A stretch of DNA of 53,808 nucleotides from Prevotella sp. (GTDB taxonomy: Bacteria > Bacteroidota > Bacteroidia > Bacteroidales > Bacteroidaceae). Below the pieces are notes generated by a model that had not been told where the DNA came from, made no database searches, and saw nothing but the letters and a program-made list of their open reading frames with translations. Position numbers and translations under genes: made by a program. The stretch spans positions 1-53,808 of the forward strand of contig JAGCPV010000074.1 in NCBI GenBank assembly GCA_017965475.1, given 5' to 3'. Of the stretch, positions 16,254 through 31,426 are shown piece after piece; the first letter of the stretch is position 1; every line of letters begins with the position of its first letter.

Positions 16254-16284
16254 TTGTCTAATTCAGATATTTCTCTTATCTTTG
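16254..16284 (+). promoter_or_regulatory. Promoter of the FHA/kinase/phosphatase island
   Basis: TTG (16254-16256) and TATCTTTG (16277-16284) are 20 bases apart. Initiation near 16291 leaves a leader of about 37 A/T-rich bases before the first FHA gene at 16328. The preceding 85 bases are A/T-rich with no gene. It is the only strong promoter I see before 28.7 kb, so it may drive the whole island. Confidence 0.7.
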
Positions 16285-16327
16285 CATCGTTGCTATATAA
16301 TTAAAAACTTTTTAAACATCTTTTGAT

Positions 16328-17110
16328 ATGTCACAGAACAAAACAGTCATCAAGGGCTTGGAGCCTGCAGACGCACCAAACGTAGAAGGTGGTGCAAGTG
16401 GTAATTTCTATACCCGTGCCGTACGGCCTAATGCAAAGGGTACAGTTGTTCCAGGTATGGAAGGGGCAGTAACTAATGCAGCAAACATTCCTACTCCCCA
16501 GTCACAACAGAATAAGCCGGCAACAGGAAAGCCTGTTGTAGGATTCCTCTATTCTATTTCTCGCACAGCATTTGGTGAGTACTGGCCCGTACATATCGGT
16601 CAGAACACGATTGGTCAGAACCCAGCCAGCGATATCGTCCTGCCAGAGGGGACTGTGTCTTCAGATCACGCCGTACTAGTGGTTAGAAAGATGAAGAACC
16701 CCGAGAAGGTGATTGCCTCTATCAGCGATGCACGTTCTACGAACGGCACGATGCTGAACGGAGAGAGCCTTGGCTTCTCTGCTGTGGATTGTAAGAATGG
16801 TGACATTATTACAATTGGTGACAACTACGAGCTCCTCCTTGTGCTGGTCGATGCTCCCGCATTAGGCTTGAAGGTGCGCGAGGACTTTATTCCTGTCCAG
16901 ACTGACGGTTTGTCCACAGATGATATTCCTGGTAGTCCTTATACAAATCCAACAAGTCAGACAATCCCAGGCAGTGGCTATGCAGGCCCGATGCCTCCTC
17001 CATTCCCAGGCGGTAGTAGCGTTCCTCTTGCTGGAACAGTAGGTATTGACGGCTCTGCACCCGCAGCAAAGGGCGGAACTGTCGGTATTGACGATCCGAA
17101 GGGATGGTAA
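16328..17110 (+). CDS. Cytoplasmic FHA-domain protein with Thr-rich linear tails
   Basis: A 260-residue soluble protein. A forkhead-associated domain spans about residues 78-165: GQNTIGQNPASDIVLPEGTVSSDHA and DARSTNGTMLNGE carry the phosphothreonine-binding Arg/Ser/Asn-type positions, with the first Arg replaced by Gln in this copy. The N-terminal 45 residues contain Thr-Val motifs (KTVIKG, GTVVPG). The C-terminus contains GTVGIDG and GTVGIDD, which look like kinase target or FHA-docking peptides. It is the first gene of the phospho-signalling island, 15 bases before the first kinase, and is a likely kinase substrate and scaffold. Confidence 0.82.
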   Translation: MSQNKTVIKGLEPADAPNVEGGASGNFYTRAVRPNAKGTVVPGMEGAVTNAANIPTPQSQQNKPATGKPVVGFLYSISRTAFGEYWPVHIGQNTIGQNPASDIVLPEGTVSSDHAVLVVRKMKNPEKVIASISDARSTNGTMLNGESLGFSAVDCKNGDIITIGDNYELLLVLVDAPALGLKVREDFIPVQTDGLSTDDIPGSPYTNPTSQTIPGSGYAGPMPPPFPGGSSVPLAGTVGIDGSAPAAKGGTVGIDDPKGW

Positions 17111-17125
17111 TGAATACTAAAGACA

Positions 17126-18670
17126 ATGGCAAGATATAAGATACAAGGTACAGCCGAAAAGCAACAGGGGATCTACTACGAGTTCGACCCGTCGGAAGAG
17201 CCCCTGGGCGTCGGTGGTATGGGAAAGGTCTATAAAGGTCTCTGCGTGAGCGAGAAGACTGGTATGACCAAATGGGTGGCCATCAAGTTCATGTACGACG
17301 ACCTGCCTCCCCAGGCCATTGAGCGTGCCCGTCGTGAAGCTGCTATCCGTATTCATCATGACAACCTAGTAGAGATGCTGGGTTTCATTGAGACGGATGA
17401 GAGAGGTCCGTTGGGGGAGACGAAGCATCGGTACCATGTAGTCAGTGAGTTGCTCGAAGGTGTCATGCTGGACGACCTGCTGTTAGGGAAACTGACAGAC
17501 CGTAATGGGAATCTTGTGCCTTATGCGCAGAAACTCTATAATGACTTCCAGAAAGACCCCTATTATTTCGCAGTCAACATCATCAGGAATGTATTGTCTG
17601 GTCTGATGGCCCTTCATGATAACGGTTATATCCATCGCGATATTGACCCGACGAACATCATGGTCACCACCGACGGCCGTATTAAACTGATAGACTTTGG
17701 TATCGCCAAGCAGAGACGTTCCCTGACAACCAACGATAAGTCGCTGACGGTGGCTGGCGTGTTTATGGGCAAACCAGAATACGCGGCTCCTGAATTGGTG
17801 CTGGGTGATGTGAAGAGTCAGGATCAGACCACGGATATCTATTCTGTAGGTATCCTCTTCTTCCAGTGTCTGGTTGGTCATCCGCCTTTCGAGGGTGATC
17901 GTCATGAGGTGCTTTCCATGCAGTTGCACTCCAAGATGCCGTTACAGCTTATTAAAAATAAGTACGTGCGGAAGATCGTGGAGACAGCCACAGAGAAAGC
18001 TCGTCCGAAGCGTTATCAGAGTGCTGCGGAGTTCAGGGTGGCTTTGGATCATCTGCCTGCACAGTTGACTGATAACCTCTTTGAGTGGAAACCGGTATAT
18101 ACCATCATTTCTGCCACTGCTGCTGCATGTATTGCTATCCTGCTGACTGTAGTCCTTTGGCCGAAGGGTACTACAAACCCAGAGCCAATGACCAGTTTAG
18201 CGTCAGGATCAGTCGTGAAAAGTGGTGGCTATATTGACGCAATTGCTAAGTTATATAGTACTGAGAGTGCCAAGGACGGCATTGCCGAACTAGAAAAACT
18301 CTCAAGTGCAGGAGATGCCCAGGCAACCTATCTGCTTAGTCGGCTCTATTTCAAGAGCAATGCGGCTCAGGACTTCTGTCCTGACTCGATCGTGAAGATG
18401 CAGTCTAATACGGGTATTGGCATTGACAACGGCAAGGCTCACCAACTTTTGCAGAAGACGATCAAGCAGGATCCGTCTAACTACAGGGCTTTGTTTGAAT
18501 TGGGATGTGACTACTTTGGCGGCGCCAGTCGCGCGTCAGAATACAGTCGTGACCTGAATGAAGCGCTTCGCCTGTTCAAAGAGGCGTTACCATACGCTCA
18601 ACAAGCCAATGATGGTGAGTTTATTAGTCGTATCCAGACGAATATCCAGAAACTGGAAAGTGTCTTGTAA
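17126..18670 (+). CDS. Membrane Ser/Thr protein kinase with atypical HRDxD loop
   Basis: A 514-residue Hanks-type kinase. The kinase domain spans about residues 25-310: glycine loop GVGGMGKVYKG, Lys54 in VAIK, catalytic loop HRDIDPTN (Asp172, Asn177) and Asp190 of DFG. One transmembrane segment lies at about 328-348. The C-terminal 150 residues contain helical Sel1/TPR-like repeats that would lie in the periplasm. The catalytic-loop Lys found in most Ser/Thr kinases (HRDxKxxN) is Asp174 here. The gene is embedded between an FHA protein and a second kinase; a PP2C phosphatase gene follows two genes on. Confidence 0.92.
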   Translation: MARYKIQGTAEKQQGIYYEFDPSEEPLGVGGMGKVYKGLCVSEKTGMTKWVAIKFMYDDLPPQAIERARREAAIRIHHDNLVEMLGFIETDERGPLGETKHRYHVVSELLEGVMLDDLLLGKLTDRNGNLVPYAQKLYNDFQKDPYYFAVNIIRNVLSGLMALHDNGYIHRDIDPTNIMVTTDGRIKLIDFGIAKQRRSLTTNDKSLTVAGVFMGKPEYAAPELVLGDVKSQDQTTDIYSVGILFFQCLVGHPPFEGDRHEVLSMQLHSKMPLQLIKNKYVRKIVETATEKARPKRYQSAAEFRVALDHLPAQLTDNLFEWKPVYTIISATAAACIAILLTVVLWPKGTTNPEPMTSLASGSVVKSGGYIDAIAKLYSTESAKDGIAELEKLSSAGDAQATYLLSRLYFKSNAAQDFCPDSIVKMQSNTGIGIDNGKAHQLLQKTIKQDPSNYRALFELGCDYFGGASRASEYSRDLNEALRLFKEALPYAQQANDGEFISRIQTNIQKLESVL

Positions 18671-18679
18671 CTAAAAACA

Positions 18680-19624
18680 ATGACTATGGCAACAATGCAG
18701 ACAGTCGTACAGCGTCCAGGTGATCCGAATATCTACCTGTATGCAATGGGGGAATGGTACTGCTATAACCCTCAGATTCCACCGTTGGGCAGCGGAGCTA
18801 TGGGTGATGTCTATCGTGGATACAGGTGCAGCAACGGCTCTGTAATCGCGGTGAAGCGTGTTAAGGATGCCTATGCCAATAACAAGATGATCCGTGAGCG
18901 TGCGCGACAGGAAGCCTCTTTGGCTTTCCGTCACCCGAATCTCGTGGAGATGATCGGTTGTTGTGAGTATGCACCTGATTCCGGTCCCATTTTCTTGCTC
19001 AGCCATTATGTGGAAGGTATAGAAATCGACGAGTTTGTCAAGAGCCTGTCAGGAGCAGCCAACAGAGTGGAGGTGATCTGCAATGCCGTCTGTTCCGTTT
19101 TGGACGCCTTGGACTATGTCCATTCCCGGGGTGTGGTTCATCGCGACATCAAACCCTCCAACATTATGATTGAGAAGGGATCTAATGTCAGATTGATGGA
19201 CTTGGGTATTGCCCGTATGAATGGTGGTAATAAGTTCTCATCCTATGGATTCATTGGCACACCAGAATATTCTGCCCCGGAACAGATCCTTCGTGAGCAG
19301 AATGGTGCCAGTGTTCAGATCAACGCCACGACAGATATCTATTCTCTGGGTATCACGATGTACGAGCTGTTGGCAGGTGTCAACCCGATGGCCTGTCAGG
19401 CAGAGGCGGAGACGCTTGCTAAGCAGATGAAGATGCAGTTGCCGACAAGTCCTGAGATTCCGAGGAAATTGATGCGAGTCATCTGGAAGGCAACGGATAA
19501 GGAACAAAGCCGTCGCTATCAGACAGCACTGGAATTCAAGAATGCCATCAAGGATTCCTTACTGCCTGATCCATCACCCATGGAGCGGTTCCTCCAGTGG
19601 TTTAAAGATCATTTTAATGTATAA
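18680..19624 (+). CDS. Soluble Ser/Thr protein kinase
   Basis: A 314-residue kinase without a membrane segment. It has the glycine loop LGSGAMGDVYRG, the Lys in VIAVKRV, HRDIKPSN (Asp156, Lys158, Asn161) and Asp174 in MDLGIAR, so the DFG motif reads DLG, a tolerated variant. The APE-like PEYSAPEQ and DIYSLGITMYELLAG complete the fold. Alternative ATGs occur at 18686 and 18695. It sits 9 bases after the membrane kinase and 17 bases before the PP2C phosphatase. This is the more canonical of the two kinases. Confidence 0.93.
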   Translation: MTMATMQTVVQRPGDPNIYLYAMGEWYCYNPQIPPLGSGAMGDVYRGYRCSNGSVIAVKRVKDAYANNKMIRERARQEASLAFRHPNLVEMIGCCEYAPDSGPIFLLSHYVEGIEIDEFVKSLSGAANRVEVICNAVCSVLDALDYVHSRGVVHRDIKPSNIMIEKGSNVRLMDLGIARMNGGNKFSSYGFIGTPEYSAPEQILREQNGASVQINATTDIYSLGITMYELLAGVNPMACQAEAETLAKQMKMQLPTSPEIPRKLMRVIWKATDKEQSRRYQTALEFKNAIKDSLLPDPSPMERFLQWFKDHFNV

Positions 19625-19641
19625 CAACCTAACAACAATTT

Positions 19642-20652
19642 ATGGAATTACAACAACTACATAGGGAAGAAAACGATATCGTTGCTGGATTTGCGGAATC
19701 CCGTATAGGCGGCAGACCGGAGAACCAGGACTCCTATGGTGCCATGTACACCAACAGGGGGTTTCTTGTGACCGTCTGTGACGGCATGGGAGGAGGTCCT
19801 GGTGGAAAGACGGCATCGTCCATTGCTGTGAACGAGATTCTGGCAGGCATCTGCGAGGCCGCAGCAGACGAGACGGTGGCAAATGTCATCATCAAGGCTG
19901 TTCGGCGGGCTAATATGGCCATCATTGAGGCAGGTAACGAGAATCCCGAGTTGAAAGGCATGGGATCCACGGCCACTGTGTTGCTGATCTCCAAGGAGTC
20001 TGCCCATGTGGCCCATGTGGGTGATAGCCGTGTCTATCAGTTCCGTGGGAAGAGGAAGATATTCCGTACCTACGACCACTCGATGGTGTTCGACCTCGTG
20101 AAACAGAAGGTGATCACGGAGGAACAGGCCCGCTTGTCCGCCCAGTCGAATGTCATCACCCGAGCCCTTGGTATGAAGCCTGATGTGGAAGTTGAAGTCC
20201 ATGAATTGCCATACAAGAAAGGAGATAGGTTTATCCTCTGTTCCGATGGTATTCATGGTACTATGCCAGAACCCGAATTCATCAAGATGGCAACAATGTC
20301 AGGTTCCATAGGTACCATTACTGATAACATTGCAACCACAGTGGATAACATGGGTCACACAAATGGTGGAGGTCATGATAACCTGACGATTGCTATTGTA
20401 GAAACAAATTCTAATTCTAAACTAAAAGCCAAGATGACAAAGAAAGCCAGAATCATTATCCTTGTGTTAGCAATCATCTGTGTTTTAAGTATCTTCCTGA
20501 ACATTTTCCAGGCAGTTAGTTGTTCTAATCCGAAGCCAATTCAGGATAGTATTACAGTAACAAATGATTCAATAAATAAGAAAATTGACAATCTTTATTC
20601 GCAGCCAGCGCAGGATGTGGTTAATCCCAAACAGAATCCTAAACAAAAATAA
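19642..20652 (+). CDS. PP2C-family protein phosphatase with C-terminal membrane anchor
   Basis: A 336-residue protein. Residues 1-255 are a PP2C (PPM) domain with all metal-binding motifs: RPENQDS, CDGMGGGPGG, HVGDSRVYQFR, SDGIHG and GGHDNLTIAIV. A transmembrane helix follows at about residues 267-290, then a short polar tail rich in Lys/Asn/Gln. It should remove phosphate from Ser/Thr residues added by the two kinases encoded directly upstream, at the cytoplasmic face of the inner membrane. Confidence 0.95.
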   Translation: MELQQLHREENDIVAGFAESRIGGRPENQDSYGAMYTNRGFLVTVCDGMGGGPGGKTASSIAVNEILAGICEAAADETVANVIIKAVRRANMAIIEAGNENPELKGMGSTATVLLISKESAHVAHVGDSRVYQFRGKRKIFRTYDHSMVFDLVKQKVITEEQARLSAQSNVITRALGMKPDVEVEVHELPYKKGDRFILCSDGIHGTMPEPEFIKMATMSGSIGTITDNIATTVDNMGHTNGGGHDNLTIAIVETNSNSKLKAKMTKKARIIILVLAIICVLSIFLNIFQAVSCSNPKPIQDSITVTNDSINKKIDNLYSQPAQDVVNPKQNPKQK

Positions 20653-20657
20653 ATAGT

Positions 20658-21260
20658 ATGAAAGTATATTCTATTGGAAGAGAAGAGAGTTGCGACATCA
20701 TCATTGATGACAGGACTGACGTGATTAGTCGTCGTCATGCAGCTTTGAATGTGACTTCGATGGGTAAGATGACCATCGTGGATTATAGCCATAACGGTAC
20801 CTATGTCAATGGTATCCGCATCTCCCCTAACGTCCCAGTCCCAGTGACGCGCAAGGATAATATATCCTTTGCCCATGTTGCCCGGTTAGACTGGCATGTG
20901 ATTCCTAACACACAGGCCAAGATTATTCGTTATGCAATTTTGGCGGTGGTTGCCGTCTTGTTGGTCATTGGTGGAGTTTGGGGATACAAGTCCTTTAGTG
21001 GCGGCTCTGGTTCAGAGACACCGGTACCTCAGGAGGCGGTGGCTGATAGTACACTGACCCAAAAACCTGATACGCTGACCCAGAAACCTGATACGCTGAA
21101 ACAGGACAAAGACACCTTGAAACAGGATTCTGTGCAGATAATACAGATTAAACGGAAGGCACCTGCAGGCAAGCCAGGAAAAGATACTGGTAAGGGCAAG
21201 AAAGATGCTCCTAAGAAAGAAGAGCCCAAACAGGAAGAGGCTCCGACGAGATTCCGATAA
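20658..21260 (+). CDS. FHA-domain protein with single membrane segment and repetitive tail
   Basis: A 200-residue protein. An N-terminal FHA domain (about 1-75) shows SIGREESCDIIIDDRTDVISRRHAAL and YSHNGTYVNGIRI, retaining the Arg, Ser-Arg-Arg-His and Asn positions that bind phosphothreonine. A transmembrane helix lies at about 92-115. The remaining tail contains tandem DTLTQKP / DTLKQDK units, then a Lys/Pro/Glu-rich stretch. Topology predicts FHA in the cytoplasm and the tail in the periplasm. It is 5 bases after the phosphatase gene. Confidence 0.85.
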   Translation: MKVYSIGREESCDIIIDDRTDVISRRHAALNVTSMGKMTIVDYSHNGTYVNGIRISPNVPVPVTRKDNISFAHVARLDWHVIPNTQAKIIRYAILAVVAVLLVIGGVWGYKSFSGGSGSETPVPQEAVADSTLTQKPDTLTQKPDTLKQDKDTLKQDSVQIIQIKRKAPAGKPGKDTGKGKKDAPKKEEPKQEEAPTRFR

Positions 21261-21288
21261 AAACATTAATAACTAAAACTATAAGAAT

Positions 21289-22902
21289 ATGAGATTATTG
21301 AAGATTGGCCGCGATGCAAGTAACGACATCGTTTTACGCAGTGAAAGAGTAAGTTCACTCCATGCTGAGATTACTTTAATGGATAGTGGTGATATCCTGT
21401 TGGAAGACAGGGGTAGCCAAAATGGAACGTTCATTCAGAACACACCGATTAAACCAGGCAAGCCCGTCAATATCAGACGTGGTGATGCGATCCGCTTTGC
21501 AGATGTGGAGCTCCAGTGGAGTCAGGTTCCTATGCCAGAGGATAACTCTGCTTATAAGGCCATTTTTGGCATTGGTTCCCACCTGAACAATGACATTCAG
21601 CTCACTGGTGATACCGTGAGCCGTTACCATGCTGCAGTTAAGATTGGCAAAGATAATAAGGTATATCTTATTGATCATAGTAAGAATGGTACGACAGTGG
21701 ATGGCCAGAGAATCACGCCCAACACGCCAGTCCGCATTAAGAAATCGAGTGCGATTGTCTGTGGTCGTGTGCCTGCTCCCAAACCTCTCCCTATTCCATG
21801 GCCGTCATCTATCTGGAAAACAATCCTCACTGCAGCCGCTGCTATCTTGATTCTTGCTGGTATTGGCTTTGGTGCTTATAAGCTCATTGGAGGTTCTCAA
21901 AAGTCTTCCGACAAGGAGTTGTATGCTCGATTTAATCATGCTGTAGTGATGTTGGTGGGTATTTATCACTTTGAGGTAGAAGTTGGAGATTGGAGCGCAG
22001 CGCAGTTCCAGCAATATAATCAGGTATGTGAGCAGATCTATCAAATCAATAAGGAAGATCTGAGAGTTCCACCACAAGTCCTGATAGATGGAAGTGGCAA
22101 ACCAATTCTTGCAAGTGGTGTCTCTTCACAAGACTTGATTAATGCATTCAATAAACAGGGTTCGTATGGTGGAACAGGTTTCTTCATTTCAAAAGATGGC
22201 CAGCTCATCACCAATCTTCACGTTGTGAAACCGTGGCTTGAATCCAATATGACAGAACTACTTCAGGATGAGTTCTCAAAGAGAATCGCCAAGTATGTAG
22301 ATTTTATTTCTAATTATACGTTAGCAACAAGTGGAGTTGCTGGTGGTATTCTTGCACCAAGTGAGATGTCTGCCTACATTTCAAAGGTAAAGGTGAAGGG
22401 CGTTCTCGACTATGTAGCATTGATTCCCAATGGAATGATTTATGACCCAGATAACATTATCAAGTGTAGGGTGTTGTCAGCCGGCAATGATCTGAATAAG
22501 GATGTGGCTCTGATCCAGACGATTAATAAGCAGTTGCCAACAGGTGATTGCACTACTATCAACGTGACGGATAGTATGGATGTTAATGACGCAGCACTCA
22601 CCGTAGGTGAACATATCTATACTTTAGGATTCCCCATGTTGACTTCTCTTCAGGACCTAAGTGCTAAGGATGGTATTCAGTTGTTGGCCCGTGGCGGTAG
22701 TATCACACAGATCTTAAATGAGTATCTTTTTGGTTTTGATGCTGCCTCTTACGGTGGAGCAAGTGGATCGCCTATATTCAATGATAAGGGAATGTTAGTT
22801 GGTATTCTTAATTCAGGAGCTAGGGCAACCCAAGGCTTTAACTATGGTGTAAAGGCTAAATATATTAAAGAGTTGTTAGAGTCTCCTCATAACGTAGAAT
22901 AA
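21289..22902 (+). CDS. FHA-FHA-transmembrane-trypsin-like serine protease fusion
   Basis: A 537-residue protein with four parts. Two FHA domains come first (about 1-75: IGRDASNDIVL, RVSSLHAEI, GSQNGTFI; about 88-160: IGSHLNNDIQL, TVSRYHAAV, HSKNGTTVDG). A transmembrane helix lies at about 182-203. A chymotrypsin-fold protease fills 205-537, with His311 in ITNLHVV, Asp405 in DVALI and Ser492 in GGASGSP, so the triad is intact. The FHA pair faces the cytoplasm and the protease the periplasm. This would couple kinase activity to proteolysis across the inner membrane. Confidence 0.9.
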   Translation: MRLLKIGRDASNDIVLRSERVSSLHAEITLMDSGDILLEDRGSQNGTFIQNTPIKPGKPVNIRRGDAIRFADVELQWSQVPMPEDNSAYKAIFGIGSHLNNDIQLTGDTVSRYHAAVKIGKDNKVYLIDHSKNGTTVDGQRITPNTPVRIKKSSAIVCGRVPAPKPLPIPWPSSIWKTILTAAAAILILAGIGFGAYKLIGGSQKSSDKELYARFNHAVVMLVGIYHFEVEVGDWSAAQFQQYNQVCEQIYQINKEDLRVPPQVLIDGSGKPILASGVSSQDLINAFNKQGSYGGTGFFISKDGQLITNLHVVKPWLESNMTELLQDEFSKRIAKYVDFISNYTLATSGVAGGILAPSEMSAYISKVKVKGVLDYVALIPNGMIYDPDNIIKCRVLSAGNDLNKDVALIQTINKQLPTGDCTTINVTDSMDVNDAALTVGEHIYTLGFPMLTSLQDLSAKDGIQLLARGGSITQILNEYLFGFDAASYGGASGSPIFNDKGMLVGILNSGARATQGFNYGVKAKYIKELLESPHNVE

Positions 22903-22905
22903 ACA

Positions 22906-24180
22906 ATGAAGAAATTACTATTATCTACTATATTTGCATTTGCCATCGTTACGGTGGCAAATGCAATTGTAACCCAGAAGGTGGTCCTGAGAGATGGATC
23001 AGTCCTCTATGGGTATATCCAACAGCAGGATGGCAAGGGTCAACTGACCATCCATACTGACAGTGCGTTGATCAGCATCAGCGGGAAGAAAGTTGCTGAT
23101 ATCAAACCATCTCCTGTGGCTGTGAATGAATTAACACCCGTCTGGAAAATCTGGGCAGAAAATCACGATGCCTACGACAACGTTAATGGCAAGAAGACAC
23201 TGACTCTTTCTAAGGTCTTCTTTAAGAAAGACTCCATTGCTAACCCCAACCAGACGACAGCAGACGTGAAGGTGTTGGAGGAGGGAGCCATTGTGAGGTA
23301 TCTGGAGTTGACACCCAGTGTCTATTTTATCAAATGGAAGGAGATTCTCACGATTCAGGCAGAGCAGCGCTCCAAGACCGACTTGTCTGGTATTGACAGG
23401 GTTTATAAACTGAAGAACGGCACTACTGAGAAAGGTCAGTACGCCGGTGAGACAGAGAATCTGCTGAAGCTCTATGTTGGTAAGCTCAAAGTCAAATCGT
23501 TTGACATCAACGATGTGGTGAAGTACGAGTATCTCCCGATTAATCCGAATCAGGACATCTTTGCTCAGAGCGAACTGCTGGATATCATCAAGACCCGTGG
23601 TGGCGAGGAGATTAAGGGCATTATCGTAGAACAGAGCTATGAAGGAAAGACAAATGCCGAGAATTACTTCAAGATTCAGACAGGCAAGGAAGCAGCTCTG
23701 ACGAGAGAAGTAAAGGTCTCAGACATCGTAGAAGTGCGTAAGACGGACAATCCAGATTACCAGCCACAATCAGATATCCTGTTGGATGAGGGAGATGTAT
23801 ATGTCAACCGTCAGAAAACTTTATGGTTAGGTGTTAAGGAACAGGCGAAGAATGATATTCTACAGTTGGATAGCATTAATACTGATATTGTAATAGCTCT
23901 GGATGCGGAAGGCAAGGCTATAGTAGCAGTAGAATACTGGTCTGAGAAGAATGATGGTGCCAAGAAGTTCCAGTTGGTCAAGGTCTCCAAAGAAAAAAAC
24001 AAGAAGAATGTCATTTATGGATTCACCTATAAGGATCTGGCCACGTCAAATTATCCATCTACAGAGCCGAAGACAAGTGTGAACCATACGACGAGGGTGG
24101 AATATACCATTCGCGCTAAGGGTGGTTATGCCCTGTATGACGCTCAGCAACACAAGGCCGTCACTTTCATGGTTAAATAA
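22906..24180 (+). CDS. Secreted protein of unknown function in the phospho-signalling island
   Basis: A 424-residue protein with a clear signal peptide (MKKLLLSTIFAFAIVTVANA). The rest is polar and beta-rich, with repeated short units of the type LRDGSVLYGYI, LKNGTTEKGQYAG and TRGGEEIKGIIVEQ, each followed 25-40 residues later by an I-x-D-V/I-V-x-[KE]-Y/R turn. This suggests several copies of one small beta module. No catalytic motif is recognised. It begins 3 bases after the FHA-protease gene, so the two are probably co-translated; it could be the periplasmic substrate or inhibitor of that protease. Confidence 0.7.
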   Translation: MKKLLLSTIFAFAIVTVANAIVTQKVVLRDGSVLYGYIQQQDGKGQLTIHTDSALISISGKKVADIKPSPVAVNELTPVWKIWAENHDAYDNVNGKKTLTLSKVFFKKDSIANPNQTTADVKVLEEGAIVRYLELTPSVYFIKWKEILTIQAEQRSKTDLSGIDRVYKLKNGTTEKGQYAGETENLLKLYVGKLKVKSFDINDVVKYEYLPINPNQDIFAQSELLDIIKTRGGEEIKGIIVEQSYEGKTNAENYFKIQTGKEAALTREVKVSDIVEVRKTDNPDYQPQSDILLDEGDVYVNRQKTLWLGVKEQAKNDILQLDSINTDIVIALDAEGKAIVAVEYWSEKNDGAKKFQLVKVSKEKNKKNVIYGFTYKDLATSNYPSTEPKTSVNHTTRVEYTIRAKGGYALYDAQQHKAVTFMVK

Positions 24181-24204
24181 GAATAGTTGAAGTAAATTGC
24201 CCCA

Positions 24205-24900
24205 ATGACATTAAGGGAAATCTCTATAGGACGCTCGAAAAACAGTGACATCTTCCTTGATGAAAACTGTATCTATGCCAGTTCAAACCATGGCACGATC
24301 TATTGTGACGGTGGTCAGCTGATGTTCCGCGACACCAGCAGTAACGGTACATTGATCAACAATGTCATGGTGAAGCATCAGGTGGTACCCATCAACAGGG
24401 GAGATGTCATCCTTGCAGCAGGTCAGTACCAGATCAATTGGTATCAGATAGATATGTTCTTTCCGCCTTCTGAACTCCAGCAGACACCGCCAAGAACAGC
24501 CATCGGTTCGCCGCAGATGCCACCACAGATGCCACCGCCTCCTCCTATGGGGGCACCCGTGCAGTCGTCTGTGTCACCACAGGTGCCGAATCTGTCAAAA
24601 TGGAACTGGGGCGCCTTTGGACTCTATCCAATCTGGGGATTCTTTAATGGTTGTTGGTGGGCATTCTTCGTGTGGCTGTTCCTTGGATGGTGCTTCCTGA
24701 TACCGAATATCGTGTTTGGTATCAATGGCACGAAGTGGGCATGGCAGAACCGTTCTTGGATCAGTGTCGAAGATTTCAATCACACCCAGTCTGTCTGGGG
24801 GACGGTGGCTATTATCCTGATCTGTATTGGCCTTGTTTCCACGTTCCTGATATTTATCTTCTATCTGGCCATATTTCTTGGTTTTTTAAATAGTTTATGA
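24205..24900 (+). CDS. FHA-domain integral membrane protein
   Basis: A 231-residue protein. An FHA domain occupies about residues 1-78 (ISIGRSKNSDIFLDEN, SSNHGTI, DTSSNGTLINN). A Pro/Met-rich linker (PQMPPQMPPPPPMG) follows, and then a hydrophobic region with WNWGAFGLYPIWGFFNG and two or three membrane helices through the C-terminus. The aromatic NWGAF-type segment occurs in small bacterial membrane proteins of unknown role. Its stop overlaps the start of the WG-repeat gene by ATGA, so translation is coupled. Confidence 0.8.
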   Translation: MTLREISIGRSKNSDIFLDENCIYASSNHGTIYCDGGQLMFRDTSSNGTLINNVMVKHQVVPINRGDVILAAGQYQINWYQIDMFFPPSELQQTPPRTAIGSPQMPPQMPPPPPMGAPVQSSVSPQVPNLSKWNWGAFGLYPIWGFFNGCWWAFFVWLFLGWCFLIPNIVFGINGTKWAWQNRSWISVEDFNHTQSVWGTVAIILICIGLVSTFLIFIFYLAIFLGFLNSL

Positions 24901-26432
24901 TGAGAAAAAGAATTGTAGGAATAGTAGTCTTGATGTTCTTGCTATCACTGAACGTGACGGCACAGAGCATCGTATGGCAGTTGAAACCGACTGATTATTC
25001 CGAGATAGTCCGTTTTGGTCCTGATATCTACAAGGTGACGAAGAACGGGAAGTTTGGTCTCATTCATTCCAATGGCGATGTCATCGTACCTGTTACTTGT
25101 AACAGAATAACGGACTTTTACGAAGGCAAGGCCCTTGTGCTTGGTAGCGAGACCGATAATGAAGGTTTCCCTCAGGTCTTGGGATATTTGACAGATCAAG
25201 GACAGTATGTACAGTTTGAAGGAACTTATTATGCATTGAAAGGCCTGGAATTCTATTCCAATGGTCTGCTTCCAGCGAACGATGCAAAAGGCAGACGTGG
25301 CTATCTGGACACAAAGGGGAATGCGGAATTGGGATTCGACGGAAAGTGGAGTGGTGTGATGCCTTTCACGGAAGATCATGCTGTGGTTTTCACGGGGAAG
25401 AAGGATAACAGGAAATACCACCTGATTGATAAGAACGGCAACAATGTGCGTTTCCTTCTTGGTAATGGCATAGAGCTATACGGTGGTACCAATGTTTATG
25501 ATGGCCAGGCGGTGGTTTGGGATACGAACAGGAAATTCTACAAGTATAATGTGTTTACAGGGAAAAGTTCTTCTTTCAAGGAGCCTGGTAATAAACAGAT
25601 GGACTATTTGTATTGTTTCATGGACGTGTCAAATCGTGCTAAGACGGCTCCTACTTATTCTTTCCCAGAAGGTCAGAAGGGGTTACAGCCTGTCAGTCAA
25701 GTGAACTTATACGGCTACAGTGAAGATGGTAAGGTGATTCTTCCTTGCCAGTTCTCTCAGGCTACAGCCTTTGAGGATGGATTGGCTGTCGTTACCCTGC
25801 AAGGACAGAAAGGTATCCTTCGTATGGTACGGGGTGGGGCTGATTTCGCACTCTCTATCCCGACGTCTCACTTTGTCTATGATCCAGGAAGTAGTGTGAA
25901 CTGTGCTTTCCAGTTGACGGTTCCTGAGGTATGGAGTGGTAAGAATATGGAAGTGACAGTGGTTGATCAGGCGACGGGTGAACGTTTGGCAACGGAAAAT
26001 ACTGCCGGCACCTATTCTTTCAAGATGAAGCCTAACTCGAAAGAAAGTAATTATGATATCTCTGTCGCATCCGAGGGCCTGGCTCTATGGTCTGGCAGTG
26101 CATCCTACACCTTTAAGAAAAGGGAGATGGATCTCCGGGTTTCATTGTCTATTGGTTCTACGAAGGCTGATAAGGACGATAAGGTTTATGTCTATGCAAC
26201 AGTTACCAATCCTGGTAGTGAGGCTGTGACAGCTACAATTACGATGGTAGGCAGCAGTGCCTTCAAGGATTTCTCCAAGACCGAAACGATTGGTGCAGGC
26301 AGCAGCGTGAAGGTCTCCTCTTATTTCTCTGTGCCAAGCGGCACATTGAAAAACCAGCATGTATCGGCGTCAACCTCCAGAGGTGGTCATGATTTCAAAT
26401 CAGGCCTGACGTTGACTCCTTTTTATGAATAA
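24897..26432 (+). CDS. Secreted WG-repeat protein
   Basis: A 511-residue protein with an N-terminal signal peptide (MMRKRIVGIVVLMFLLSLNVTAQ). Residues 45-300 contain WG-type beta repeats, seen as NGKFGLIHSNGDVIVPV, GRRGYLDTKGNAELGF, KYHLIDKNGN and NLYGYSEDGKVILPC, usually followed by a phrase like AFEDGLAVV. The C-terminal 190 residues look like two Ig-like beta domains. WG repeats are thought to mediate binding. Its overlap with the FHA membrane protein gene suggests that the two products work together across the envelope. Confidence 0.8.
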   Translation: MMRKRIVGIVVLMFLLSLNVTAQSIVWQLKPTDYSEIVRFGPDIYKVTKNGKFGLIHSNGDVIVPVTCNRITDFYEGKALVLGSETDNEGFPQVLGYLTDQGQYVQFEGTYYALKGLEFYSNGLLPANDAKGRRGYLDTKGNAELGFDGKWSGVMPFTEDHAVVFTGKKDNRKYHLIDKNGNNVRFLLGNGIELYGGTNVYDGQAVVWDTNRKFYKYNVFTGKSSSFKEPGNKQMDYLYCFMDVSNRAKTAPTYSFPEGQKGLQPVSQVNLYGYSEDGKVILPCQFSQATAFEDGLAVVTLQGQKGILRMVRGGADFALSIPTSHFVYDPGSSVNCAFQLTVPEVWSGKNMEVTVVDQATGERLATENTAGTYSFKMKPNSKESNYDISVASEGLALWSGSASYTFKKREMDLRVSLSIGSTKADKDDKVYVYATVTNPGSEAVTATITMVGSSAFKDFSKTETIGAGSSVKVSSYFSVPSGTLKNQHVSASTSRGGHDFKSGLTLTPFYE

Positions 26433-26465
26433 ACATTATTGTCAAACTATTAAACACAAAGTTTT

Positions 26466-27188
26466 ATGAAGAAACTACTAATTCTGTTTGTCGCAATTCT
26501 GAGCGTGTCGCCAGCACTTGCACAAATTGAGGACGAATCCGACTTCGGTCAGTTGAGCTCCAGCCGCTTTGAGAAGCCAAAGAGCAGCGCTTTTTTCATT
26601 GGTCCGAAGGTGGGTGTGACCATGACATCAATGACACAGCCTGCTCAATGTGACCTTTATGACAAATCTGGTATCGGCTTCTCTGGTGGTGTTGCCATGA
26701 AGGCTCGCTTTGGTAAGGCTACAGAGAACTCATACGAGGGAACAGGTATGTTCGGTGTTGGCTTGGAACTGAAGTACAAGCAGAACAATGTAAAGACGAT
26801 TGCCAATGAAGGAGACCTAAAACTTGGCTATTTCGAGGTGCCTGTCACGCTCCAGTTCTACCCCTTTGCCAAGTCGAAGATCATGAATCCTTTCTACATT
26901 GAGTTGGGTGCTAGCTTTGCAGGCATCATGTCAAAGAGTCCTGATGCACTGACGGTGAATCTCAATCAGCCTTATCCAGGCAATCAGTCCGTAACATATC
27001 CTGTTGGTGATTTGAAGGGATTTGACGTGAGAGGTGTGGCAGGTATCGGTTATACAATTCCAGGAACAGGTGTTGATATCAATGCACGTTATTATCTTGG
27101 TACCAGTGAATTGGCAAAGGATTTTACCAGTAAGATGAGCACTGTTGAAGTCTCTCTCTCCTATTATTTCCAACTTGCTAGATTCTAA
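26466..27188 (+). CDS. Outer membrane beta-barrel protein (PorT-like fold)
   Basis: A 240-residue protein with a signal peptide (KKLLILFVAILSVSPALAQ) and alternating amphipathic strands typical of the small Bacteroidetes barrel family: FFIGPKVGVTMTSM, GIGFSGGVAMKARFG, GVGLELKYKQNN, VRGVAGIGYTIPGTG and a terminal VEVSLSYYFQLARF ending in an aromatic. It is the tenth gene of the island and could give the system an outer-membrane component. Its true role is not evident. Confidence 0.75.
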   Translation: MKKLLILFVAILSVSPALAQIEDESDFGQLSSSRFEKPKSSAFFIGPKVGVTMTSMTQPAQCDLYDKSGIGFSGGVAMKARFGKATENSYEGTGMFGVGLELKYKQNNVKTIANEGDLKLGYFEVPVTLQFYPFAKSKIMNPFYIELGASFAGIMSKSPDALTVNLNQPYPGNQSVTYPVGDLKGFDVRGVAGIGYTIPGTGVDINARYYLGTSELAKDFTSKMSTVEVSLSYYFQLARF

Positions 27189-27213
27189 TTACTCACTTAA
27201 CGAACACAGGATT

Positions 27214-28737
27214 ATGAAAAAAGTTTTATTCGGCCTGATGGCCATTATGATAGGATTGTTCTCATCTTGTTCTAATGATGAGATTAATGTTAATGTGGTT
27301 CCAACGCCTGAACCACCAAGAACCTTGAGTTTGAGTATCTCTACTACGCCTGGATTTGAGCCTTTTGGTATAGATTATTACAAAAATCAGCTTCTTAATA
27401 ATAATCAACCCTATTATATAGGCGTGAAGACATATTTGTATGATGACAGTGGTATAATTGTTGATTCTGTTAACTCTTATACAAAGACTTTCAATCAGGT
27501 TGATCAGACCTTTGCTAATTTGAAGAGAGGGTCTTATACTGCTGTGACAGTTGAAACATTGGTCAATTCTGATTACCAATATACTTCAGACTATTGGGAT
27601 ATTATTGGAGCGAGCCAGCTGAATACGTTGGCTATCAAGATGAATTCGACTTCTTTTGTTGTCTATTGGGGTGGAGTTATTGCGGTTGCTTCAAAGGTCA
27701 TTACAATCGCTTCTGAAGATGAGGCTGTGTCATTAAGTCCTTCCCCAATGGGAGCGTTAGTGGATGTCCACTACTTGGATTTTAATAAAAGTTCTTATAC
27801 TCTTGCGGCATTATATTCCAAAAACAAGCCAATAGGCATGTCTCTAAACCCCAATGTGCGTGATTCTGAGAGATATTTATATGATGAATATTTAGAGACA
27901 CATACGTGGGATAGGCGTGATTATGAGTATTCTTCAACAGGTTTTACTGAAGGTGATTATTCCCATACAGTGTATCTTATTGAACAAGGTGATTTGAATT
28001 GGTGTTTTGGTGCACAAACTCCAGAAGATGATGGCCGTTTTACGGCTTATCCCAATAGTAGTTCTCACTTTACGCTTGAAAATGGTAAGTACTATTATGC
28101 AGGTTTCTGCTATAAGGGAGGAACGAAGGGGTCTGACTGCGAAGCTGCTTTTTGCAAAACTTTAGCAGAATTACAAGAATGGTACAATTCTATAGATAAG
28201 TCTAATCAGGATCAAGATCTTTTGTTTAAGGAACCGTATCTTGTATGGGGTGGAACGGTGAGTGCTGTGCAGACACATATGAGTTCCTATTCCCCAGGGA
28301 ACAGTGCTCCAGAAGCAAGTGGTGATTTTTATTTGCTGTGGTATTATGGCAAGTATAAGGAGATAGAGACGGATTATTATTTCACAAGTAGTACTGGAGG
28401 CCTTGCTTGGGTTAATATGTTCTTCGAATCCAGCGTGGGTGAGGATGAGATCATGTCAGAATTAACCAATAATGGATATACCCTGGCAGAATACGATTCT
28501 TCAGAAGAAACATATTACTATTTGTCTTCAGATCAAAAAACAGTAGCTAGATTCTTAAAGAATTCTGAAGGCTATTGGCTTGTTCAATACTATGGTTATT
28601 CTTCATCAGCAAGAGCTCGTGGTGATGCAATGGATAAGACTAGTAAGATTACGGGAAAAGCTAAGAGTTATGAGGTCTCTTCGCCTTTCTATGTAGTTAA
28701 GAACAACCGTATCAGTTTAAGACAACTGAAGAAGTAA
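27214..28737 (+). CDS. Large lipoprotein of unknown function
   Basis: A 507-residue protein with a lipoprotein signal (MKKVLFGLMAIMIGLFSSCSND, lipobox Cys at residue 19). The rest is Tyr/Ser/Asp-rich and beta-rich, without a recognised domain; a segment near 30-140 (LSLSISTTPGF ... YKNQLLNNNQPYYIGVKTYLYDDSG) resembles Bacteroidetes surface lipoproteins. Base composition is more A/T-rich than in the kinase genes, which may indicate separate acquisition. I chose the ATG at 27214, after the upstream stop; an in-frame upstream start would overlap the previous gene and spoil the signal peptide. It is followed by a terminator. Confidence 0.75.
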   Translation: MKKVLFGLMAIMIGLFSSCSNDEINVNVVPTPEPPRTLSLSISTTPGFEPFGIDYYKNQLLNNNQPYYIGVKTYLYDDSGIIVDSVNSYTKTFNQVDQTFANLKRGSYTAVTVETLVNSDYQYTSDYWDIIGASQLNTLAIKMNSTSFVVYWGGVIAVASKVITIASEDEAVSLSPSPMGALVDVHYLDFNKSSYTLAALYSKNKPIGMSLNPNVRDSERYLYDEYLETHTWDRRDYEYSSTGFTEGDYSHTVYLIEQGDLNWCFGAQTPEDDGRFTAYPNSSSHFTLENGKYYYAGFCYKGGTKGSDCEAAFCKTLAELQEWYNSIDKSNQDQDLLFKEPYLVWGGTVSAVQTHMSSYSPGNSAPEASGDFYLLWYYGKYKEIETDYYFTSSTGGLAWVNMFFESSVGEDEIMSELTNNGYTLAEYDSSEETYYYLSSDQKTVARFLKNSEGYWLVQYYGYSSSARARGDAMDKTSKITGKAKSYEVSSPFYVVKNNRISLRQLKK

Positions 28738-28746
28738 AGTGTTTGG

Positions 28747-28785
28747 TGCAAGAGTCTGTGACAAATCATAGACTCTTGCATTTTA
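28747..28785 (+). terminator. Terminator at the end of the phospho-signalling operon
   Basis: A 15-pair stem (28747-28761 with 28766-28780, one G-U pair, CAAA loop) starting TGCAAGAGTCTG and followed by TTTTATT. It separates the 11-gene block from the M6 protease gene. Confidence 0.88.
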
Positions 28786-28804
28786 TTGCCATTGTGTCTG
28801 AAGT

Positions 28805-31426
28805 ATGAAAAAGCCTATTTTAATTGTTAGTCTTATACTCTTTTGTTGGGTGGAGGCTCTTGCCGTCCCAGCAAAACGGTTTACGCGGACTGTTCAGCAA
28901 AGCGATGGAACATCCTTAACCATCATCTTATGCGGAGATGAATATCTGCATTATTATTCAACAGATGATGGCTATCCTGTTCTCCAAGGTCAGGATGGCG
29001 GATTCCGTTATGCACGTTTCTGTCAGCAGACTTTGGCTCCGACAGACGTATTAGCCCATAACTCAACAGAAAGGGATAATGAGGAGAGACAATATGTAAA
29101 AGGTCTGGATGAGGATGTCCAACTAAGAATCCCTGAAATCTGGAAAGACAGGGTATCCGCAGGTGGACGTACGAAGAGACAATTAATGGCAAGGGGAACT
29201 AGAAATACAGGTTCGAGTATTTCACGTAGATCCTATATCGGGAAAAAGAAAGGTCTTGTAATCCTTGTTGAATTTAAAAACAAGACGATGGCGGCCAGCA
29301 ATCCCCAACATGAGTTTAACAGAATGTTCAATGAGAAAGGATATAGCGATAACAACCATATTGGATCAGTCCACGATTATTTTTATGATCAAAGCTATGG
29401 GATGTTTGACCTGAGCTTTGATGTTGTCGGTCCTGTGTCTATGAGCGAGAACTATGGCTATTATGGCTCTAACGTGAATGGTGTAGATGGAAGAGACCGC
29501 TATCCTGGGAAAATGGTGGCTGAGGCATGTAAACAAATAGCAGACCAAGTGAACTTCTCTGATTATGACTGGGATGGTGACGGGGAGGTTGAACAGGTCT
29601 TCATTGTATATGCAGGATATGGTGAATCCAATGGTGCACCATCCAATACAATATGGCCCCACCAATTCAGCTTGTCAGATTGTATGTCCCTAGGCGATGG
29701 GGAAGGCCCGTTATTATTGAATGGTACGAAGATAGATACTTATGCATGTACTTGTGAGTTGGCTGAAACACGTGGCTCCACAATGAACGGCATCGGAACG
29801 GCGTGTCATGAGTTTAGTCATTGTCTTGGTCTTCCCGATTTCTATGATATCAAATATAATGGAGGTTATGGGATGGGTTACTGGGACTTGATGTGTTCAG
29901 GAAACCATAGTGGCCCCAAGAATAATGGGGAAGTGCCTTGTGGTTATTCTGCTTTTGAAAGGTGGTTTGCAGGATGGCTTGAATACGAAGAACTTTCAGA
30001 ACCTGCCCAGATTTCAGAAATGCCAAACCTTGGTGAGGAACCTTTGGCTTATATTCTTTACAATGACAACCATCCAGATGAGTTCTTCCTCTTAGAGAAT
30101 AGACAAAACGTAAGATGGTTCTCGTATGTGAGCACATCTGATAAATGTCACGGACTGCTTGTAACACATGTCGATTATGATGAGTCGGCATGGTTAAGGA
30201 ACAATGTTAATATATTGCCTGATCATCAACGTATGAGTATTATCCCTGCTAATGGTGAATTTGGAGAGTTGGTGGTAAAAGATAATTCAAAAGTATATCG
30301 TGAAACAGAGGATCAGTTATTGGGCGATCTATTCCCTGGTGCCATGAAAGTCACAGAATTGACCAACACATCACATGATGATGCTGGCGGCAAGCTTTTT
30401 AATCGGAATATTGATGGGACTTTCAATATGAATAAGCCCATAGAGAATATAACAGAAGATAATGGTTTGATCTCATTCGACTTTATGGGCGGGATATATG
30501 TGCCTTCGCCTATAGTATTGGAGCCGACAGATATCAACAATAATGGTTTCACGGCGAATTGGGAGTCCGTTGACGGGGCAGATAGTTATTCAATTGAGTT
30601 AACAGAACTGGCTCAACAAGGGAAGCCTAATGATAATATCCTATTGTTTGAGAGTCTGGACAGGTTTATGACCAATGTGAGTATGGGTGATGGATTTGAA
30701 GACTTGTCTTCTAAACTTGATGAATATATGGATCATAAAGGATGGTCAGGTCTGAAAGTCTTCACGTCTCCTTATGGCGCAAAGTTAGGAACTAGTAGTG
30801 TCAAGGGTTATCTTACAAGTCCTCAGATGGATAGTAAGTCAAGGAACATCACTTTTATAGTTACTGCGAATTCATCTGAAAGTGGTGATGTCAATATGGA
30901 AGTCTTATTACTAAACTCAGATGGAGAGGTAAATGCAAAGGTTGATATTCCTGTCAACGAGACTTCTTCCGTGTCTGTTCTCAATTTTGAAGGACTTGAG
31001 CCTGGTGCATATCAGATTTCTATAGCGCCTTCTCGTCGAGTGTATATTAGTGGCTTGGGAATATATGATGGCTTCTATACGGAAGAGAATATCGCAGATA
31101 ATGGTTTGTCCTCTCAAATACCGTTAAGTCCTCAAACTAAAACAGTCTTCAAAGATATAAGCTCAAACAATTATACTTTTGATAGTCTGAAAGGCTCAAA
31201 TTATAGGTATTGTGTAAAAGCAATCCTGAATGGGGCTGCCTCTGCATGGAGTGATCCTATGGATGTACAGCTGACGACTGGTATTCTCCATCATCCAGTG
31301 GATGGACAGGATGACAAACCTGAATACTACCTGCTGAATGGAAGCAAGGTGTCATCCGTCAATCGTCTTGGTCTTTATATTGTCAAGCATAAAAAAGGTA
31401 AGGTTGTTCTGATTAATTCTAAATAG
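28805..31426 (+). CDS. Secreted M6-family zinc metalloprotease
   Basis: An 873-residue protein with a signal peptide (ILIVSLILFCWVEALAVPA). The M6 (immune-inhibitor-A-like) motif HEFSHCLGLPD is present: His335, Glu336, His339, with Gly342 and Asp345. A fibronectin type III-like module (FTANWESVDGADSYSIEL) lies at about residues 575-610, a beta domain follows, and the C-terminal YYLLNGSKVSS...LGLYIVKHKKGKVVL resembles a T9SS sorting tail. The protein is therefore probably exported by the machinery that includes PorU and PorV. It lies just downstream of the island's terminator; no strong promoter of its own was seen. Confidence 0.88.
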   Translation: MKKPILIVSLILFCWVEALAVPAKRFTRTVQQSDGTSLTIILCGDEYLHYYSTDDGYPVLQGQDGGFRYARFCQQTLAPTDVLAHNSTERDNEERQYVKGLDEDVQLRIPEIWKDRVSAGGRTKRQLMARGTRNTGSSISRRSYIGKKKGLVILVEFKNKTMAASNPQHEFNRMFNEKGYSDNNHIGSVHDYFYDQSYGMFDLSFDVVGPVSMSENYGYYGSNVNGVDGRDRYPGKMVAEACKQIADQVNFSDYDWDGDGEVEQVFIVYAGYGESNGAPSNTIWPHQFSLSDCMSLGDGEGPLLLNGTKIDTYACTCELAETRGSTMNGIGTACHEFSHCLGLPDFYDIKYNGGYGMGYWDLMCSGNHSGPKNNGEVPCGYSAFERWFAGWLEYEELSEPAQISEMPNLGEEPLAYILYNDNHPDEFFLLENRQNVRWFSYVSTSDKCHGLLVTHVDYDESAWLRNNVNILPDHQRMSIIPANGEFGELVVKDNSKVYRETEDQLLGDLFPGAMKVTELTNTSHDDAGGKLFNRNIDGTFNMNKPIENITEDNGLISFDFMGGIYVPSPIVLEPTDINNNGFTANWESVDGADSYSIELTELAQQGKPNDNILLFESLDRFMTNVSMGDGFEDLSSKLDEYMDHKGWSGLKVFTSPYGAKLGTSSVKGYLTSPQMDSKSRNITFIVTANSSESGDVNMEVLLLNSDGEVNAKVDIPVNETSSVSVLNFEGLEPGAYQISIAPSRRVYISGLGIYDGFYTEENIADNGLSSQIPLSPQTKTVFKDISSNNYTFDSLKGSNYRYCVKAILNGAASAWSDPMDVQLTTGILHHPVDGQDDKPEYYLLNGSKVSSVNRLGLYIVKHKKGKVVLINSK

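Follow-up and report, generated by a model that had tools for sequence, protein, structure and literature searches.

The proteobacterial type VI secretion system (T6SS) has a threonine phosphorylation pathway made up of PpkA, PppA, Fha and TagQRST, as set out in the available text of PMC10482370. In the kinase-kinase-phosphatase module KKP, which the accessible part of PMC11341870 describes as mostly prophage-borne, one kinase is fused to a cold-shock domain (CSD) and the other to an FHA domain. A protein of Bacteroides thetaiotaomicron, NP_811686.1, has the domain order FHA-FHA-trypsin, and the portion of PMC2605481 that presents it gives it as a single protein architecture, with no description of an island.

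The locus described here is an island of 11 genes within a 53,808-nucleotide stretch of Prevotella sp. DNA (hereafter, the window), and is kin to known kinase/PP2C/FHA modules, in a new form. Like the T6SS threonine phosphorylation pathway, it brings together in one locus a membrane kinase with an outer part, a PP2C phosphatase and FHA proteins, it has envelope partners, and four relatives have it joined to a T6SS. Unlike that pathway, as far as the text of PMC10482370 covers it, the island has four FHA proteins, one of them fused to a protease, and no T6SS marker was found in 17 of the 27 type A island genomes tested. The presence of two Hanks-type kinases adjoining a PP2C gene recalls KKP, but neither kinase carries a CSD or FHA fusion (Pfam) and many envelope genes accompany them, in contrast to KKP as presented in PMC11341870; identity with KKP was rejected because these fusions are missing. 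Gene 6 of the island shares the domain order of NP_811686.1. The original prediction held that the system was undescribed, and among the matches listed there is no account of such an island in the literature.

The island lies at positions 16328 to 28737 on the plus strand (to which all gene coordinates below refer), and its 11 genes, whose ORF coordinates were checked and are all present, run in one direction. Intergenic gaps are, in order, 15, 9, 17, 5, 28, 3, 24, -4, 33 and 25 bases, where the last value counts the start of gene 11 as the ATG at 27214 (a TTG at 27145 is an alternative further upstream). The largest gap is therefore 33 bases and one pair overlaps, as predicted. Pfam profile searches found FHA domains in genes 1, 5, 6 (twice) and 8. 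Genes 2 and 3 matched Pkinase, gene 4 PP2C, gene 6 also Trypsin_2, gene 9 WG repeats and gene 10 OMP_b-brl_2. These matches confirm the families of the proposed phospho-signalling cluster; genes 7 and 11 matched no Pfam family. Hydropathy, from which all topologies given here are taken, places a single membrane segment in each of genes 2, 4, 5 and 6 and two in gene 8, and signal-like N-terminal segments on genes 7, 9 and 10. A promoter-like site, TTG-N20-TATCTTTG, is found at 16254 to 16284 (plus strand) and matches the pattern TTG-N20-TAnnTTTG, which we take to be the Bacteroidota type of promoter consensus. The window's plus strand has 7 occurrences of the pattern, where block shuffles give an expectation of 0.86, and no other plus-strand match lies between those at 10133 and 32881. 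A 17-bp terminator-like hairpin 3' of gene 11 (28738 to 28800, plus strand) folds at -25.4 kcal/mol, which is compatible with the terminator predicted to follow the cluster; this hairpin is not among the sites listed by the terminator scan. Judging from sequence, it is plausible that the whole island forms one transcript.

In alignments, the catalytic residues of the kinases, phosphatase and protease are intact. Gene 2 (17126 to 18670) encodes kinase 1, a Hanks-type kinase (Pkinase, 1.4e-35) with a predicted membrane segment at residues 326 to 344, whose catalytic residues K54, D172, N177 and D190 show no variation in 27 sequences. Mean identity is 60% in its kinase part versus 24% in the part outside the membrane, which is weakly TPR-like. 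Kinase 2, the soluble Hanks-type kinase encoded by gene 3 (18680 to 19624; Pkinase, 9.6e-43), has K158, N161 and D174 in 27/27 sequences and D156 in 26/27 (one gap). The PP2C phosphatase of gene 4 (19642 to 20652; PP2C_2, 9.6e-15) ends in a predicted membrane segment (residues 271 to 289) and matches the NCBIfam model Stp1_PP2C_phos at 1.9e-57, under the model's cut-off. Five Asp residues checked in this phosphatase are invariant in 35/35 sequences, a count that takes in second PP2C copies. Kinase 1 and the phosphatase are thus likewise predicted to be membrane-anchored, which goes beyond the original prediction.

The FHA proteins include the expected soluble, single-segment and protease-fused forms; gene 8 (24205 to 24900; Pfam FHA), for which several membrane segments had been proposed, has two by hydropathy. 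Gene 1 (16328 to 17110; FHA, 2.7e-12) encodes the soluble protein, of 260 amino acids, and its copy in the window has Gln at the position of the phosphothreonine-binding Arg, which is Arg in 13/23 sequences. In gene 5 (20658 to 21260; FHA, 8.9e-17), where the FHA domain is followed by a membrane segment (residues 89 to 107) and a charged tail, the phosphothreonine-binding residues R8, S24, H27 and N46 are invariant (25/25). The product of gene 6 (21289 to 22902) consists of two FHA domains, a membrane segment and a trypsin-like protease domain (Trypsin_2, 4.1e-13) that is predicted to be periplasmic and whose triad, H311/D405/S492, is invariant in 27/27 sequences. The phosphate-binding Arg is missing from its second FHA domain in all 26 sequences having a residue there, and from its first in 10/26. 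Because this Arg is missing from the gene 6 domains and from gene 1 in 10/23 sequences, some of the FHA domains may be structural only.

Gene 7 (22906 to 24180) encodes a predicted secreted protein with a signal-like N-terminus and no assigned family: no Pfam family matched more than 2 of its 24 relatives, and its best match in the PDB was at chance level (E = 0.54). It is found in 23/27 islands, and gene 9 (24897 to 26432), which encodes a secreted WG-repeat protein (WG, 6.2e-14), in 19/27. The remaining genes encode an outer-membrane beta-barrel (gene 10, 26466 to 27188; OMP_b-brl_2, 5.7e-12) and a lipoprotein without an assigned family (gene 11, 27214 to 28737). The lipobox-like start of the latter was recognized by eye, and its Cys19 is invariant in the 8 aligned sequences, counting the window. 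Genes 8, 10 and 11, which only a minority of islands carry (5, 9 and 8 of 27, respectively), are thus accessory.

Gene order proved to be conserved beyond close relatives, as anticipated for the predicted system. The order kinase 2, PP2C, FHA with membrane segment and FHA-protease is held in 26/27 related islands from several families, the remaining island being cut by a contig end, and these islands occupy varied chromosomal sites. That order and content recur across families argues that the island is more than a chance assembly. Islands were found in at least 12/200 genomes of a genus sample, at least 8/61 genomes of the Phocaeicola group (one being type B) and at least 6/393 genomes order-wide; all are lower bounds, few candidates having been scored per genome. 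Matches in G287, G325, G441, G297 and G286 (5 of 17) were not counted, as they have no FHA, kinase or PP2C labels alongside. The set of 27 leaves out the type B islands L059, L061 and L065 and the duplicates L057 (identical in content to L151) and L230 (99.4% identical to L033 across 13.6 kb). Genome comparison thus shows a module that is conserved yet patchily distributed.

The window has an extra block of ~16.3 kb (16163 to 32543) that two relatives, G258 and G256, lack; its flanking matches sit ~140 bp apart in G258 and ~56 bp apart in G256, a comparison compatible with gain and with loss. The block contains the island, an M6 protease, a small protein and a Zn-ribbon FHA gene (31809 to 32531) with matches in 0/9 other genomes, and its G+C content is lower (45.4% versus 50.2 and 52.8%). 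What follows ispF varies among relatives: G262, the closest by PorV, and G206 hold different genes at this site. Neighbors of other islands include BACON domains, one weak T9SS tail, one barrel and one helicase, with no effector common to these neighborhoods.

We propose, with confidence just short of even, that the island is a mobile, autonomous envelope phospho-switch that exerts inside-out control of a periplasmic protease and was recruited once by a T6SS. By hydropathy, kinase 1, PP2C and the gene 5 and gene 6 proteins are anchored in the inner membrane, their kinase, phosphatase and FHA parts facing the cytoplasm and the protease and the kinase 1 tail lying on the outer side. Kinase 1 might use its fast-evolving outer part to sense a periplasmic condition, and kinases 1 and 2 would phosphorylate threonines of island proteins. 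These phosphothreonines could be bound by the FHA domains, of which that of gene 5 is the best preserved, and a membrane complex would form in which the tethered trypsin domain is delivered to, or kept at, partners in the periplasm or outer membrane, namely the gene 7 product, the WG-repeat protein, the barrel and the lipoprotein; PP2C would reset the switch. In one clade, the same module appears to have joined a T6SS without detected TssN. The relay of a phospho-signal across the envelope that was originally suggested is in keeping with a conserved island predicted to extend over cytoplasm, inner membrane and periplasm, but a T6SS role is not its general rule. To our knowledge, outward transfer of a Ser/Thr phospho-signal through the inner membrane is a feature of few signaling routes. 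If the proposal is correct, a kinase/PP2C/FHA set in control of a tethered periplasmic protease would achieve such outward signaling compactly.

The island could instead be a T6SS threonine phosphorylation pathway whose target, in trans, is the T6SS encoded on another contig of the window's genome (G000:C23). The claim that no secretion or baseplate genes are present is true within 16328 to 28737, but the T9SS genes porU and porV are directly upstream, and four genomes (G013, G168, G196 and G760; one clade, two families) have the island and a T6SS in one continuous stretch. This continuity speaks for a T6SS pathway, as do the resemblance of the kinase/PP2C/FHA trio to the proteobacterial pathway in the text available from PMC10482370, the presence of TssC in 5/9 type A genomes of a family sample (the window's counted) and of Hcp in 3/6 type A genomes chosen regardless of the TssC result, and a marker (TssC or Hcp) in 10/27 type A genomes tested. 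However, the other 17 have no marker, and neither TssC nor Hcp was found in five genomes that are 92 to 99% complete (G233, G062, G413, G408 and G437). TssC was found in 3/12 island genomes of the genus sample and in 28/188 of its other genomes (p = 0.40), and the T6SS-linked islands form a single clade that excludes the window. Moreover, the TssC on C23 is 39% identical to that of the island-linked T6SS, and the C23 locus includes its own multi-TM genes. We therefore consider action in trans on this T6SS unlikely, and, given the genomes without TssC and Hcp and the lack of excess co-occurrence, set aside T6SS as the general function, while keeping it as the leading alternative. TagQRST and TagF had no match among the island's Pfam and NCBIfam results. 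An Alistipes island genome had no TssC match, in a search whose controls were unmatched too.

Ordinary envelope maintenance, with gene 6 as a quality-control protease in a DegP/DegS-like role and the kinase pair for fine tuning, would fit the weak, below-cut-off DegP/HtrA matches of the protease domain and the secreted and barrel partners. We hold it to be improbable, since the rare and patchy distribution, including the low order-wide count, argues against housekeeping, and Pfam found no PDZ domain in gene 6. That patchy, insertional distribution would suit an anti-phage or abortive-infection module whose toxic kinases are freed by phage attack. The kinases do match the PADLOC models PD-T4-6 and MAD6, but 34 PADLOC models match each kinase, such models matching Hanks kinases broadly, and the PADLOC scan gave nothing specific. 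The lack of KKP-type fusions also argues against defense, gene 6 was unmatched in 50,697 phage records, and viral contigs gave two weak gene 6 loci, of which one has an annotation that shows no island and the other is an unannotated match of 20 residues. A defense role seems very improbable. The suggested survey of neighbors for defense or secretion genes yielded, besides porU/porV and the T6SS of four relatives, restriction-like or Cas9-like proteins, recognized by eye only, at up to ~20 kb from three islands, which would favor defense; no common effector emerged. Regulation of the T9SS is the hardest to credit: porU, porV and ispF end 160 bp upstream of the island, and a protein after one relative's island has a T9SS tail match below cut-off, but relatives carry porU-porV-ispF without an island, other genes lie beside islands elsewhere, and the promoter-like site belongs to the island itself.

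The T6SS linked to islands belongs to the Bacteroidota type (TssC PF17541). In G013 it includes TssC, Hcp and VgrG domains and a ClpB-type AAA protein (Pfam); TssC was found in G168 and G196, and the T6SS of G760 was identified from BLAST labels. TssB is assigned by position only, with no Pfam match, and TssF-like and TssK-like matches are below cut-off. The TssC, Hcp, VgrG and ClpV-like genes are like those of Bacteroidota T6SSiii, but the TssNQOPR membrane complex described for the latter in the accessible text of PMC10781749, which gives TssN as nearly ubiquitous in Bacteroidota T6SS, contrasts with the lack of a detected TssN here. A profile search found TssN in 0/4 island-linked genomes versus 3/3 canonical controls, with divergence past the profile possible. 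TssN was also undetected in G000, G363 and G299, whose T6SS have no island alongside, which ties the lack of TssN to divergent T6SS generally. The island-linked T6SS, with no TssN detected, is a testable exception to the near-ubiquity stated in that text of PMC10781749.

A bolder reading, which we regard as unlikely, sees in the island an envelope-spanning platform, assembled through phosphorylation and able to act as an interchangeable membrane base, which replaces a TssN-type complex in the clade of G013, G168, G196 and G760 and acts alone elsewhere, as in the window, directing the periplasmic protease via FHA docking. The TssN counts in linked and canonical genomes favor it, and the failure to detect TssN in G000, G363 and G299 speaks against it. 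Also in its favor, hydropathy in G013, the sole linked locus in which the two sides were compared, gives few membrane segments on the T6SS side (a PG-binding protein has two, an effector-like gene and ClpV one apiece) and one or two in each of the kinase, FHA-TM, PP2C and FHA-protease genes. Were this platform real, it would be a membrane complex with its assembly written by threonine phosphorylation.

Plasmid records gave two matches, one of them an FHA match only and the other an island of Phocaeicola massiliensis that is labeled as plasmid and is possibly chromosomal. By their titles, records with related islands come from gut and rumen, and also include a strain of P. massiliensis, which means that a culturable host is at hand.

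Eleven plus-strand genes lie consecutively at 16328-28737 of the window, which is contig C57 of a genome that is 85% complete in 189 contigs. They are spaced by -4 to 33 bases, when the spacing of the last gene is counted from ATG 27214. Pfam bears out the parts of the 11-gene phospho-signalling island that the original prediction described. Gene 1 matches an FHA protein and gene 10 an outer-membrane barrel, while Pfam and hydropathy together predict a kinase with one membrane segment (gene 2, kinase 1), a soluble kinase (gene 3, kinase 2), a PP2C phosphatase with a C-terminal membrane segment (gene 4), an FHA-TM protein (gene 5), an FHA-FHA-TM-trypsin protein (gene 6, the FHA-protease), an FHA protein with two membrane segments (gene 8), and a presumably secreted WG-repeat protein (gene 9). 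Gene 7 is predicted from hydropathy to encode a secreted protein, and gene 11, read from ATG 27214, a lipoprotein. Directly 5' of gene 1, at 16254-16284, is a TTG-N20-TAnnTTTG site, a consensus that we take to be promoter-like and of the Bacteroidota type; it is the sole plus-strand match between the sites at 10133 and 32881. A weak terminator-like stem (16193-16223) lies between it and ispF, and folding places a 17-bp hairpin, absent from the terminator scan output, 3' of gene 11. The genes directly upstream (10906-16167) are the T9SS genes porU (C25 peptidase) and porV, then ispF, all of which are also present in relatives without the island.

In the sampled genomes the island is conserved and patchy. 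FHA-protease relatives occur at E 1e-20 in at least 14 of 251 family genomes, nine with islands of the window's kind (type A, window counted) and five with another kind (type B), whose last gene is a ~1,270-aa kinase where the contig extends far enough. Matches were found in at least 17 of 200 genomes of the genus sample (12 of them true islands, window included), 8 of 61 in the Phocaeicola group (one being type B) and 6 of 393 in the order-wide sample (the four new ones all type A); all these counts are minimum values, as not every candidate in a genome was scored. Among 27 type A loci set against the window, 26 keep the order kinase 2, PP2C, FHA-TM, FHA-protease on one strand, the exception (L156) being cut at gene 6. 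Gene 1 stands in front in 24, and in the remaining three a contig end truncates the locus. Kinase 1 is present in 24 of these loci, gene 7 in 23, the WG gene in 19, the barrel in 9, the lipoprotein in 8 and gene 8 in 5, counts that include some cut loci. The core is thus made up of FHA, kinases, PP2C, FHA-TM and FHA-protease, with the outer-envelope genes accessory. Eight type B loci (L034-L038, L059, L061, L065) carry FHA-protease, FHA, PP2C and kinase genes, plus a ~1,200-1,300-aa kinase where the locus reaches; that of L034 has no further Pfam domain. Three other Bacteroidales clusters (L064, L071, L073) contain many consecutive FHA and kinase genes.

The island enzymes look live, judging from their active-site residues. 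The five PP2C aspartates are invariant in 35/35 sequences (second copies included), and the His/Asp/Ser of the gene 6 protease in 27/27. Kinase 1 keeps its catalytic residues in 27/27 sequences; D156 of kinase 2 is present in 26/27, the remaining one having a gap. The phospho-threonine-binding residues of gene 5 are likewise invariant (25/25). Those of the FHA domains of genes 6 and 1 are degraded: the Arg is found in none of 26 sequences with a residue at that position in the second FHA of gene 6, and is missing from 10/26 in its first FHA and from 10/23, the window among them, in gene 1. Mean identity in kinase 1 is 60% for the kinase part versus 24% for the part outside the membrane, a contrast from which we infer a diversifying sensor.

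The best explanation, to which we give slightly less than an even chance, is an envelope phospho-switch with a periplasmic protease. It draws on the parts, the intact active-site residues, the predicted membrane placement and the conserved order. A periplasmic condition would act via kinase 1, threonine phosphorylation would make FHA docking sites, docking could bring the membrane-tethered protease toward periplasmic partners, and PP2C would reset the switch.

Alternatively, the island might serve type VI secretion (T6SS). In three Phocaeicola-group genomes (G013, G168, G196) it continues into kinase 1 and WG copies, ClpV, TssB (assigned by position), TssC, Hcp, VgrG and an effector-like gene, and further into TssK/TssF-like genes, a kinase-FHA gene, another kinase 1 and a WG gene. 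A fourth case, G760, belongs to a different family and is split across two contigs. These four islands form one clade (bootstrap 100, tree re-rooted on type B). TssC is found in 5 of the 14 family-sample genomes, 5/9 type A (the window's included) and 0/5 type B. In the genus sample it occurs in 3/12 island genomes versus 28/188 others (Fisher p = 0.40, island and TssC counts taken as the same draw of 200), and it was not found in the Alistipes island genome. Hcp was sought in 11 type A genomes; it is absent from the five pre-selected for absent TssC (G233, G062, G413, G408, G437) and present in three of the other six (G465, G470, G760). Overall, 10 of 27 type A genomes have a T6SS marker and 17, some of the genomes being incomplete, do not; G233, without a marker, is one contig and 99% complete. 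T6SS is not the general partner of the island. The 10 of 27 and the partial pre-selection of the Hcp set made us raise the T6SS link marginally, to a level that is still improbable, and lower the phospho-switch by as little, from even.

In nine partly annotated Prevotella-group genomes that have a divergent TssC (G246, G363, G403, G357, G430, G344, G297, G299, G402), the stretches read carry no kinase or FHA labels. That of G299 has a WG-like gene; in G344 and G299 the island is on other contigs. The T6SS of the window's genome is on contig C23, with a TssC 39% identical to that of G013, and its locus includes a multi-TM protein, a weak E2-like match and, by eye, an E1-like protein. Ubiquitin-like sets accompany two divergent T6SS loci: L166 (G363) has a firm ThiF match with UQ_con and JAB below cut-off, and the C23 locus (L050, L051) has UQ_con and RING-like matches below cut-off in L050, with the E1-like protein there assigned by eye. 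Each locus also encodes an 800-aa protein containing several membrane segments, and no TssN was detected in either.

TssN is nearly ubiquitous among published Bacteroidota T6SS (PMC10781749). It was detected in G080, G265 and G274, which have canonical TssC, and in 0/4 island-linked genomes; G000 (the window's own), G363 and G299 also gave no match. Few membrane segments are predicted for the G013 genes that run from ClpV to the PG-binding gene (ClpV 1, effector-like gene 1, PG-binding gene 2), against one for each of the kinase 1 copies, kinase 2, kinase-FHA, FHA-TM and FHA-protease and two for PP2C. These figures are compatible with the island providing the membrane base of the linked T6SS, but they are no proof of it. 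The absence of TssN may reflect divergence, and divergent T6SS with no linked island lack it as well.

The island parts resemble those of the proteobacterial threonine phosphorylation pathway (PMC10482370, PMC12607579). Kinase-kinase-PP2C is shared with KKP, but the domain fusions that PMC11341870 describes for KKP are absent from the island. The FHA-FHA-trypsin domain order has been published before for Bacteroides thetaiotaomicron (PMC2605481). In PMC4714493, which defines the T6SS architectures of Bacteroidales, a term search of the main text gave no kinase, FHA or phosphatase. None of the literature matches listed, a scope outside which subscription papers and preprints fall, describes the island.

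Comparison of the flanks indicates that the island moves, and in other genomes islands adjoin different genes. In blastn searches against G258 and G256, the alignment of the ispF region stops at 16163 and picks up again at 32515 or 32543, points that are ~140 bp (G258) and ~56 bp (G256) apart in these relatives, so the window has ~16.3 kb extra. This block is a candidate, not a proven, gain in the window or loss in the relatives. G+C is 45.4% in the island versus 50.2% upstream and 52.8% downstream. Of 14 relatives compared around porV, G258 and G256 alone share the next gene, and in G262 and G206 ispF is followed by different genes; by these comparisons the site 3' of ispF is variable. Also within the extra block, at 28805-32531, are genes for an M6-like protease and a small repetitive protein and, on the opposite strand, a Zn-ribbon FHA gene, the last found in none of nine other genomes searched. 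By eye, integrase-like proteins lie upstream of two islands (L031 16215-17111, in G013; L059 2838-4034), and Cas9-like or methyltransferase/restriction-like genes lie ~20 kb or less from three (L219/L225 in G760, L230 in P. massiliensis, L042 in G233).
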